This document shows, piece by piece, positions 23,225 to 64,000 of a stretch of DNA of 64,000 bases. Within the stretch, counting starts at the first letter, position 1, and every line of letters begins with the position of its first letter. A model generated the notes under the pieces. That model was not told where the DNA came from, did no database searches, and saw nothing but the letters and a program-made list of their open reading frames with translations. Made by a program: the position numbers and the translations under genes. Source of the stretch: Bdellovibrionota bacterium (GTDB taxonomy: Bacteria; Bdellovibrionota; Bdellovibrionia; Bdellovibrionales; JAEYZS01); the NCBI GenBank assembly GCA_040386775.1, contig JAZKEU010000018.1:1-64000 (forward strand), read 5' to 3'.

Positions 23225-23601
23225 GGTATAAACCTATCTTTTTCTTCTGGTGTGGGGATTCTGCATGTATCCCGTTTTCCAAACCACTTATAACGATTTT
23301 TAGCTACAAATTCATATATAGAATCGCGAAGAAACTTTGGAATGACAAGTAACAAAAGTATTGTAATCCAAAATCCACCTAAAAAAGCCAAGGCTCTAAT
23401 TGCTGCATCAGATTTGAAGTATTCGTAACCATTTATAGATAAAATAACGGTATTGATTTCGGTTTCATTTTTTCTTTTTGCTGTTTGAAGTGGTGCTAAT
23501 TTGAGACTTTTAGATTTGTCATGTTTTAGTAAAAAATCTACGAAGCGATTACATAGTCCGCAAACTCCATCGAAATATACAATGACACAATTAGATTCCA
23601 T
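23221..23601 (-). CDS. DCC family thiol-disulfide oxidoreductase-like protein (DUF393)
   Basis: A small thioredoxin-fold-like protein of the DCC/YuxK family, named for the Asp-Cys-Cys motif seen here as FDGVCGLCNRFV near the N terminus. A hydrophobic segment near residues 85-103 (FWITILLLLVIP) is usual in the family. Activity is poorly known. The first gene of a two-gene unit with the ZIP transporter. I chose the ATG at 23601 over a GTG one codon earlier. Confidence 0.85.
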   Translation of the reverse strand: MESNCVIVYFDGVCGLCNRFVDFLLKHDKSKSLKLAPLQTAKRKNETEINTVILSINGYEYFKSDAAIRALAFLGGFWITILLLLVIPKFLRDSIYEFVAKNRYKWFGKRDTCRIPTPEEKDRFIP

Positions 23602-42899: not shown

Positions 42900-43265
42900 G
42901 GGGATCTCCTTTGAGTAAGAGAGAACATAACATGGATTTTAAAACTTAAAGATTTGAGAGATTTAAAAATTGAAATACATATTGATAAAATAATATTAGA
43001 CGCACATAAAGGCTTTCTATTAACCACAGCGAAGATAAAATTAAAAACAAAAGGAAATATAAAAATAACTAAATGTAGTTCATTTAATCCATCAAAAAGC
43101 TCGTCAACTTTATTTTGAAATATTAAAAAAATATTTTTTAAATAACGCAATTGAGACACGTAAAGGTGCAGGGCACTTTTTGCTCCCTTTTGGTTTCAAA
43201 ATAAAAAGCCGACTCCTTTCAAGTCGGCTTTTTATTTTCTAACAGCAAAGTCCAAGAGAATATTA
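42900..43265. other. Intergenic region with no gene supported
   Basis: AT-rich sequence upstream of the HNH gene. It holds that gene's leader and the terminator at 43203-43233. An open frame on the minus strand (42896-43159) has no ribosome site, has a hydrophobic biased composition and is not called. Confidence 0.6.
43203..43233. terminator. Bidirectional intrinsic terminator
   Basis: A perfect 12-bp stem aaaaagccgact / agtcggcttttt with loop cctttca. T-runs occur on both strands. It probably ends the minus-strand gene at 43266-43523. Confidence 0.88.
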
Positions 43266-56271: not shown

Positions 56272-56315
56272 TAACGCAGGTCTTCTTGTTAAGCTAGCCA
56301 AGAAGACCTGCGTTA
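56272..56315. repeat. Perfect 17-bp inverted repeat without a T-tract
   Basis: Positions 56272-56288 are the exact reverse complement of 56299-56315, with a 10-base loop (ttaagctagc). No T-run follows on either strand, so it is not a classical intrinsic terminator. It lies between two minus-strand genes and, like 1-43, is a long GC-richer stem in an AT-rich gap. Confidence 0.7.
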
Positions 56316-61961: not shown

Positions 61962-62315
61962 CTATAAATGAATTCTCAAAGAAAGTAGTATTGTCGTTAA
62001 AATTAGCCCCAGGTAAAATACTGCAGGAATTATTTTGCTTATTGGGTCTTTGATTTTAATTCTTACAAGAATTGCCACAAACATCATAACCAGCAAGCCT
62101 AATAATGAGATTGCGATTAAGAATTTAATTTCTAAAGCTAAGCCTATTGCTAACATAAGCGCTAAGATAATTTGACTAGCTCCTGTGAGAACTCTCAGCT
62201 TTGGGAGTTTGTATCGCTCAAACTCTGCTCGCATGAATTCAGTTGAGAAACAGCTTGTGCCGTAAATTATAAATGATAAGATTAAAAAAATGATGGAGAG
62301 CTGATGTAGAGTCAC
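61962..62315 (-). CDS. DoxX-like membrane protein
   Basis: A 117-residue inner-membrane protein with four helices, of the DoxX-like type (PF13564). It contains MRAEFERYKLPKLRVLTGAS and the VRIKIKDPISKIIPAVFYLG block. The same block is seen in its divergent neighbour as MHIKVKDPAKKSLPAVLMLI, so the pair arose by duplication and inversion or recombination. It starts at GTG. Function unknown. Confidence 0.75.
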   Translation of the reverse strand: MTLHQLSIIFLILSFIIYGTSCFSTEFMRAEFERYKLPKLRVLTGASQIILALMLAIGLALEIKFLIAISLLGLLVMMFVAILVRIKIKDPISKIIPAVFYLGLILTTILLSLRIHL

Positions 62316-62384: not shown

Positions 62385-62747
62385 TTGAATTTAGTACTTA
62401 TATTACAACTGATTGTAGCTATCGGACTTTTAAATGTATGGCTTTTGAGATCAAAAAAAAGCACGGACTATAGAGGTAAATCTGCAAGCAACCTAAAAGA
62501 AGAATTTTTGGCCTACGGCCTTCCTGTTTGGTTCTTTTATCTAATAGGCACTCTCAAAATTGGCGCAGCCCTGGCTCTTGTTGCAGGAATTTGGATGCCA
62601 GAGCTACTTCCATTTGCGAGCGGTTTGGTAATGGCTCTAATGGTTGGTGCTTTGTTGATGCATATTAAAGTTAAGGACCCCGCTAAAAAATCTCTTCCGG
62701 CTGTGTTAATGTTAATTATGAGCGGCGGAATATTTTTTTTAGTATAA
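62385..62747 (+). CDS. DoxX-like membrane protein, divergent paralogue
   Basis: A 120-residue four-helix membrane protein of the same DoxX-like type as its divergent neighbour. It has SNLKEEFLAYGLPVWFFYLI after the first helix, matching the neighbour's MRAEFERYKLPKLRVLTGA. It starts at TTG with GAGGG upstream. The two genes share a 69-base promoter region. Function unknown. Confidence 0.75.
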   Translation: MNLVLILQLIVAIGLLNVWLLRSKKSTDYRGKSASNLKEEFLAYGLPVWFFYLIGTLKIGAALALVAGIWMPELLPFASGLVMALMVGALLMHIKVKDPAKKSLPAVLMLIMSGGIFFLV

Positions 62748-62764: not shown

Positions 62765-63262
62765 CTACTCCATAGATAATTTAAAAACATCTTTTTGAGT
62801 TACAAATAATCCTAGCATTAAATTGGCAGCTGATATCATTTCTTCTAGTGATTTAAGTCTTTCAAGATTTACATCTGTTTTTTTACTTTGAGCAGATTTT
62901 AAAGTAGAAAAATTTTTTGTGATTTTTTGAAGAATTTTAGCCTCACGGTTTTTTAAAACATGCTTAATGACCTCGCTGATATTTTCTGTCGCAACATAAA
63001 GTTTTGTTTTTTTGTTTGGAGAGGGTGCTTCGTGGATGAGTCTATATTGGCAGAGCTCCTCAAGGGCTGGACTGACTAGAGCTTTGGATAGTCCAAGGCT
63101 TACCGTGAGGTCTTTGCAGCTCAAAGGCGCCTTTGATACATAGATTTGAGTCCATATCGCGCCATGGATGCGACGAAATCCCCAATAACGTATAAAGTCA
63201 CCGATGGACAGTGATAATTTTTGCAAGTGAAAGTCTTTTCCTTTATCTTTCATATAGTTCAT
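62765..63262 (-). CDS. GbsR/MarR-type transcriptional regulator
   Basis: A 165-residue winged-helix regulator of the GbsR group. The signature LSIGDFIRYWGFRRIHGAIW leads into the HTH SLGLSKALVSPALEELCQYR. A C-terminal helical arm follows for dimerisation. GbsR proteins control osmoprotectant, peptidoglycan or lipid genes. Its first codons (MNYMKDKG) lie within a 56-bp palindrome that also mirrors toward osmC. No ribosome site is visible before the ATG, so the true start or a leaderless message is uncertain. Confidence 0.85.
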   Translation of the reverse strand: MNYMKDKGKDFHLQKLSLSIGDFIRYWGFRRIHGAIWTQIYVSKAPLSCKDLTVSLGLSKALVSPALEELCQYRLIHEAPSPNKKTKLYVATENISEVIKHVLKNREAKILQKITKNFSTLKSAQSKKTDVNLERLKSLEEMISAANLMLGLFVTQKDVFKLSME

Positions 63263-63293
63263 ACTAATATGAACTATATGAAAGATAAAGGAA
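63238..63293. repeat. 56-bp palindrome with 26-bp perfect arms between gbsR-like and osmC
   Basis: Positions 63238-63263 are the exact reverse complement of 63268-63293, with only ctaa between. The left arm is the start of the gbsR-like gene. The right arm therefore encodes MNYMKDKG on the plus strand as well, as the start of an 11-codon frame (63269-63304) that ends just before the osmC ATG and contains its ribosome site (AAAGGA). It may be an operator for the regulator or an inverted duplication. Confidence 0.85.
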
Positions 63294-63306
63294 GTTTTAA
63301 ATAATT

Positions 63307-63741
63307 ATGCAACTACCTATTGAGTTCAAATCTAAAGCCACTGCCTCAGGAGAATTTGTTCAGCCTTGGCTTATTGAGTGTGGAGAGTATTCTGCAAAAT
63401 GCGCGGTTCCTTCTGAATTTGGAGGCGTGGGAGACGGTTTTTCACCAGAGGATTTGTTTTTACAGGCGCTGATGAATTGTTTTATTGGTACTTTCAAAGT
63501 TTATGCAAAAAGCTCTAAGATTCATTTTTCAAAGTTAGAACTAAATGGAAATCTAGTGGTTGATCAAAACTCTTCACGGGAGGTGCGTATGCACAAGTGT
63601 GATCTTACAGTTCAGATTTGGGGAGCAGAAAGACCTGACCGTGCTAAAACTCTTGCAGATAAGGTTTTTCGAGATGGATTTATTCTTAACTCCGTTAAAA
63701 CCGAGATTAGTTATAAATTAATTATCGAAGGAATTTTGTGA
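63307..63741 (+). CDS. OsmC-family protein lacking the second catalytic cysteine
   Basis: An OsmC/Ohr-superfamily protein (144 residues), usually a thiol peroxidase acting on organic hydroperoxides. The first cysteine is in LFLQALMNCFIGTF. Where OsmC and Ohr have a second Cys (in a CPVS-like helix start), this protein has FRDGFILNSV, so a classical dithiol cycle is not possible. It resembles the YhfA-like single-Cys subgroup. It diverges from the GbsR-type regulator across the palindrome. The lipocalin gene overlaps its stop (GTGA). Confidence 0.85.
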   Translation: MQLPIEFKSKATASGEFVQPWLIECGEYSAKCAVPSEFGGVGDGFSPEDLFLQALMNCFIGTFKVYAKSSKIHFSKLELNGNLVVDQNSSREVRMHKCDLTVQIWGAERPDRAKTLADKVFRDGFILNSVKTEISYKLIIEGIL

Positions 63742-64000
63742 AAAAAAGAATTAAAATTCAACAAAAGTTGCAATCCATTTTTAGCCAAATTTTTATGATA
63801 GCATCTATTCCAGCCTTTTCGGCTTGTTCAACGGTATCATTTCCTACAGTGGAAAAAGTTGATATCGAAAGATTTATGGGAACTTGGTACGTGAGTGCTG
63901 GACGGTTTACAATCTTAGAAAAAGACGTTCATAATGCTGTAGAGATTTATACTTACGATAAAACTAAGGATACGATAGATATCGATTACACATATAGAAA
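63738..64000 (+). CDS. blc: Lipocalin lipoprotein (Blc-like), cut by the window end
   Basis: The first 87 codons of a lipocalin. A basic N terminus and hydrophobic segment end at a lipobox FSAC, as in the outer-membrane lipoprotein Blc, which binds fatty acids or lysophospholipids. The first lipocalin motif is clear: VDIERFMGTWYVSAGRFTIL. The GTG start overlaps the osmC stop, so the two are translated together. The rest lies beyond the window. Confidence 0.85.
   Translation, partial: MKKRIKIQQKLQSIFSQIFMIASIPAFSACSTVSFPTVEKVDIERFMGTWYVSAGRFTILEKDVHNAVEIYTYDKTKDTIDIDYTYR

Follow-up and report, generated by a model that had tools for sequence, protein, structure and literature searches.

Within the window, i.e., the whole 64,000-nucleotide stretch of Bdellovibrionota DNA analyzed here, we found a 56-bp palindrome that is very probably the autoregulatory operator of the adjacent GbsR/MarR-type regulator, superimposed on a symmetric bidirectional promoter whose starts are predicted to be leaderless. 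A repeat search placed it at 63238–63293, with two arms (63238–63263 and 63268–63293) of 26 nt each that are 100% complementary around a 4-nt CTAA spacer, which bears out the pairing described in the original prediction. By composition, the chance expectation of such a repeat is ~1e-9 in 64 kb, and the second-longest perfect arms within the window are 17 bp. Two further sites, at 56272–56315 and 43198–43238, also pair perfectly as inverted repeats, over 17-bp arms with a short loop, and are possibly terminators. On the minus strand, the left arm forms the opening of a 165-aa regulator ORF (62765–63262, MNYMKDKGKDF...), and the right arm opens an 11-codon frame, MNYMKDKGSFK-stop, whose stop codon at 63304 is 2 nt ahead of the osmC ATG (63307). 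This frame had been described correctly; position 63304, given earlier as the far end of the element, is the stop codon of the mini-ORF, and the palindrome itself ends at 63293. The AAAGGAA motif put forward as the ribosome site of osmC stops 13 nt short of the ATG, which is a long distance, and it is a weak site at best.

Comparison with relatives divides the palindrome into an operator core and a genome-specific dyad extension: a 30-bp segment is conserved, and the perfect pairing of the outer 13 bp per arm is not common to close relatives. In orthologous GbsR/MarR-type regulator genes from all over Bdellovibrionales (30+ loci), the core CATATnGTTCATAnTAnTATGAACnATATG occupies the same position at the gene start. 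In the window, the predicted 30-bp operator CATATAGTTCATACTAATATGAACTATATG (63251–63280) is kept in orthologues with covarying arms, and within it lies an 18-bp core, GTTCATACTAATATGAAC (63257–63274). The window site is the sole exact core match in the 2.86-Mb genome and also the sole one with fewer than two mismatches. A second genomic site with two mismatches (C16:118984), being inside a coding gene, was taken as a chance match.

The arms of the operator also change together. The base 10 positions from the dyad centre varies on both sides at once, as AGTTC/GAACT, TGTTC/GAACA, or GGTTC/GAACC. For 48 dereplicated sites, each arm was compared with its own partner and with re-paired arms (2000 re-pairings, shared ancestry ignored), after the weak core matches L045, L054, L057, L067, L071, L108, and L097 had been removed by hand as probable chance hits or for want of related neighbours. 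Arm matches at positions 10–15 numbered 219 versus 173 ± 5.8 for re-paired arms (0/2000), those at positions 16–22 numbered 157 versus 136.5 ± 8.0 (15/2000), and pairing past position 22 was not above the re-paired level overall. At locus L109 (genome G025), two operator-like dyads ~68 bp apart (sites in L025 at 1995 and 2063) occupy the interval between the regulator and DCC genes, one probably serving each gene.

Occurrence of the operator follows one clade of regulators. A search of 141 genomes of the order turned up the exact core (GTTCATRNTANYATGAAC) in 26; the regulator (E ≤ 1e-30) was detected in 25 of these 26 and in 6 of the other 115 (Fisher p = 5e-21, uncorrected for ancestry). The tree built from 55 regulators splits at one branch, with support of 96/94, into the 35 that have an operator (at most two mismatches) and the 20 that have none. 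Widening the search to the class brought in almost no genomes from outside the order. The operator is absent from both genomes of the same family (G001 and G002), and the window regulator clusters in the tree with the regulator of another family; therefore, the gene may have moved between lineages. Conservation, covariation, this co-occurrence, and sites at distant genes strongly support the suggestion, made in the original prediction, of an operator for a dimeric regulator.

Sequence comparison places the regulator among the winged-helix proteins of the MarR superfamily, as one of the GbsR/MJ223 type. The profile of its family matches MJ223 (1KU9) with E = 2.7e-15, and a MarR_2 match was obtained for 15 of 15 aligned family members. 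A Foldseek comparison of the predicted fold (mean pLDDT 83) ranked 1ku9 first (E = 2e-5), with a TM score of only 0.45, so the domain arrangement differs. A Pfam search of the window regulator returned no family at E ≤ 0.001, and its sole NCBIfam match was CudC at 21.3 bits. Since this score is far below the cut-off of 218 of the curated GbsR-type model, the protein is named GbsR-like. Beside the regulator gene are two divergent DoxX_2 genes (61962–62315 and 62385–62747).

The dyad centre holds a −10 element (TAnTAT) on both strands. When all spacers were tested across all sites, matches to TTGACA peaked at a spacer of exactly 17 bp from TAnTAT, with 3.1 of 6 bases against a background of ~1.6, and smaller peaks at 10 and 12 bp arise from the core itself. 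In the window, the predicted plus-strand osmC promoter consists of a −35 TTTATC (63242–63247), located 17 bp from its −10 and within the first codons of the regulator, and a −10 TAATAT (63265–63270). The predicted minus-strand regulator promoter consists of a −35 TTTATC (63284–63289) within the mini-ORF and a −10 TAGTAT (63261–63266), which shares 2 bp with the osmC −10. Both −35 elements match the consensus at only 3 of 6 bases, and a generic consensus promoter scan of the window reported neither promoter. The 17-bp geometry on both strands means that the site is laid out like the bidirectional promoters of E. coli and Salmonella (PMC12825309, PMC10268837). Its sequence geometry would fit that class, which has overlapping opposed −10 elements and starts 7–25 bp apart. 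It likewise resembles MarR-type autoregulatory operators, which are palindromes of ~16–20 bp over promoter elements, as the 18-bp core covers both predicted −10 elements.

The 17-bp geometry around the −10 elements of the dyad places the predicted transcription start of each arm on its second ATG, i.e., at ~63277–63278 for osmC and ~63254–63253 for the regulator, 23–25 bp apart. An in-frame TAA splits the two ATGs in the orthologues L006, L007, L049, and L083 (ATGAACTAAATG), and therefore the second ATG is the likely translation start. The left arm does contain the beginning of the long frame, as the original prediction held, and the first ATG of either arm is probably not the start. The regulator gene probably extends over 62765–63253 on the minus strand, with a protein that begins MKDKG (MKDKGKDF...) rather than MNYMKDKG and an mRNA predicted to be leaderless. 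The divergent mRNA would be leaderless too in many relatives. Some osmC and DCC genes carry their own ribosome site, and a second-ATG or leaderless start is not universal among the targets.

Combining these observations, we propose that two opposed sigma-70-type promoters share the dyad, with their −10 elements overlapping centrally and each −35 lying in the opposite arm, so that the strand opposite the first codons of the regulator would supply the −35 of the promoter facing it. Bound at the core, a dimer of the regulator would mask both −10 elements and silence its own gene together with osmC and the lipocalin gene, repression being assumed from family precedent, and a signal, plausibly one of stress, would release it.

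The predicted regulon members in the window are an OsmC/Ohr-type gene (63307–63741, plus strand), which adjoins the palindrome, and a Blc-like lipocalin (Lipocalin_2) gene on the same strand, which runs from 63738 past the window end at 64000 (full gene L134:8739–9296). The lipocalin gene overlaps the end of osmC by 4 nt, so these two predicted targets form one operon. Elsewhere, a lipocalin homologue from a different genome (L102) is preceded by an operator copy of its own. Which gene faces the regulator differs by genome: it is most commonly a DCC thiol-disulfide oxidoreductase gene, it is osmC here and in several others, and DUF1731 and DUF2805 genes also occur. Further sites precede unlinked osmC genes (L104 and L106) and photolyase-related genes (L060 and L066), or lie between DCC and ABC1-kinase genes. 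The window also contains a DCC1-like gene (23275–23580) ~40 kb away, a DCC gene being the usual regulator partner in relatives, and no operator match was found ahead of it. Because this gene set resembles those of light and photo-oxidative stress regulons (PMC9758184, PMC5241685, PMC5401885), it suggests peroxide or photo-oxidative stress as a plausible releasing signal. Literature searches covering MarR operators, leaderless mRNA, and photolyase or light in Bdellovibrio gave nothing on this system.

Past the conserved 30 bp, 13 more bases per arm are perfectly paired (63238–63250, mirrored at 63281–63293) in this genome only. The outer sequence on the regulator side matches relatives (AAAGGAAAA in the regulator of L005), so the copying probably ran from the regulator side into the osmC leader and would have created the mirrored mini-ORF; for the inner bases, the direction is unsure. 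Of the 48 sites, 5, whose sequences differ, have at least 24 pairs (28 in the window, 27 in L078, 25 in L123, 24 in L061, and 24 in L047), whereas 0.26 are expected from re-paired arms. Imperfect inverted repeats are known hotspots of template switching (PMC7202029, PMC8604942), and this process probably made the outer arms identical. In L047 (G064:C16:6244), the 24-pair dyad has a quite different outer sequence (GACCTCCGCATTA...TAATGCGGAGGTC), with a GGAGGT ribosome site in the outer arm that can be read on either strand. The suggestion of a mirror-duplicated start therefore fits in part: divergent genes in many relatives begin alike, with one start per arm, and the mirroring was probably extended here by template switching.

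Could symmetry of purely mutational origin, through quasi-palindrome correction without regulatory function, explain the whole element? Template switching probably accounts for the outer extension, but mutation alone leaves unexplained a core fixed in divergent genomes, the sites at unlinked genes, and the co-occurrence with one regulator clade, which makes this explanation very improbable. A fold-back join or another assembly artefact is less probable still. The outer perfect arms are not common to close relatives and the species is represented by one assembly among those examined, yet dozens of separate assemblies share the conserved core, which refutes an artefact for the core. For the extension it is unlikely: a fold-back join normally mirrors much further, while here the sequence turns to osmC at once with both flanking frames intact, and arms of similar length with other sequences exist in other genomes (L078/L124, L123, L061, and L047).

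Slightly more credible than either of these, and still very unlikely, is the idea that the palindrome works as RNA, with the osmC or regulator mRNA folding into a long hairpin that hides the start codon and ribosome site. The RNA fold of the region is strong (−37 kcal/mol, z −8.7). However, the genes are divergent and the predicted transcription starts lie inside the arms, so each transcript would carry one arm only and a hairpin could form only in read-through transcripts; the hairpin that the original prediction had imagined over both starts is thus unlikely. The 17-bp promoter geometry and the recurrence of this site before unlinked genes of various kinds also favour a role as DNA. An addition to the bidirectional operator–promoter is that the full 56 bp is functional, either because the outer arms bind further dimers or because the mini-ORF couples osmC translation to leaderless initiation. 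We consider this unlikely, though well ahead of the alternatives above. The second-ATG mini-ORF, MKDKGSFK-stop (63278–63304, plus strand), is predicted to open the osmC transcript and ends 2 nt ahead of osmC; such mini-ORFs stop within a few nt of the osmC start here, in L058, and in L104, and in L123 the mirrored codons form a mini-ORF (MESKA-stop) ahead of a DUF1731 gene with its own start. In contrast, the mini-ORF is absent at other osmC loci (L006, L007, and L106), and the outer pairing beyond position 22 is not above the re-paired level overall.

Taken as a bidirectional promoter under its own repressor, the site can be compared with known systems. PacrA/acrR with the autorepressor AcrR is a bacterial example (Warman et al. 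2021; PMC10268837, PMC12825309), and bidirectional promoters of this kind share with the predicted layout of the present site pseudo-symmetric DNA, overlapping −10 elements, and two opposite transcripts, one of which encodes a repressor of both genes. Unlike in those, the symmetry here reaches from one predicted −35 to the other and coincides with the operator, coding starts inside the arms, and the predicted starts are 23–25 bp rather than commonly 18 bp apart. The MarR-type repressors of the GbsR family (B. subtilis GbsR, OpcR, and OpuAR; PMC6207618) share the fold template MJ223 (1KU9) and are often divergent from their targets. In contrast to them, no osmoprotectant genes were seen at the sites here, the targets being of redox and light-damage type, and the regulator resembles curated GbsR-type models only weakly in its overall sequence. 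Ohr/OsmC genes are paired with MarR-type OhrR repressors, and here too an OsmC-type gene adjoins a MarR-type regulator, but this regulator is GbsR/MJ223-like and osmC is one of several targets. CrtR of Corynebacterium (PMC5401885, PMC6739363), compared for likeness and not orthology, is also MarR-type and divergent from its targets, with a leaderless regulator transcript, as predicted here, and a light-inducible regulon, and lipocalin and photolyase genes, like the predicted targets here, are annotated in its gene neighbourhoods. CrtR differs in controlling carotenoid synthesis, in having no long dyad, and in belonging to other organisms.

With somewhat less than even confidence, we suggest that these loci form a previously undescribed stress regulon of Bdellovibrionota under a GbsR/MJ223-like repressor, in which one dyad would serve as operator, −35-to-−35 symmetric bidirectional promoter, and two leaderless starts, with the first codons of each side constrained as the −35 of the other and the mirror arms rebuilt by repeated template switching. 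The hosts are predatory bacteria and their kin, for which the literature searched gave no such regulator. An odd palindrome thereby becomes a testable regulon, with one regulator clade, a sharply defined operator, and OsmC, lipocalin, DCC thiol-disulfide oxidoreductase, photolyase-related, DUF2805, DUF1731, and ABC1 targets. It would offer a compact natural case in which protein-coding starts, promoter elements, and an operator occupy the same bases and the arms of a palindrome evolve together.
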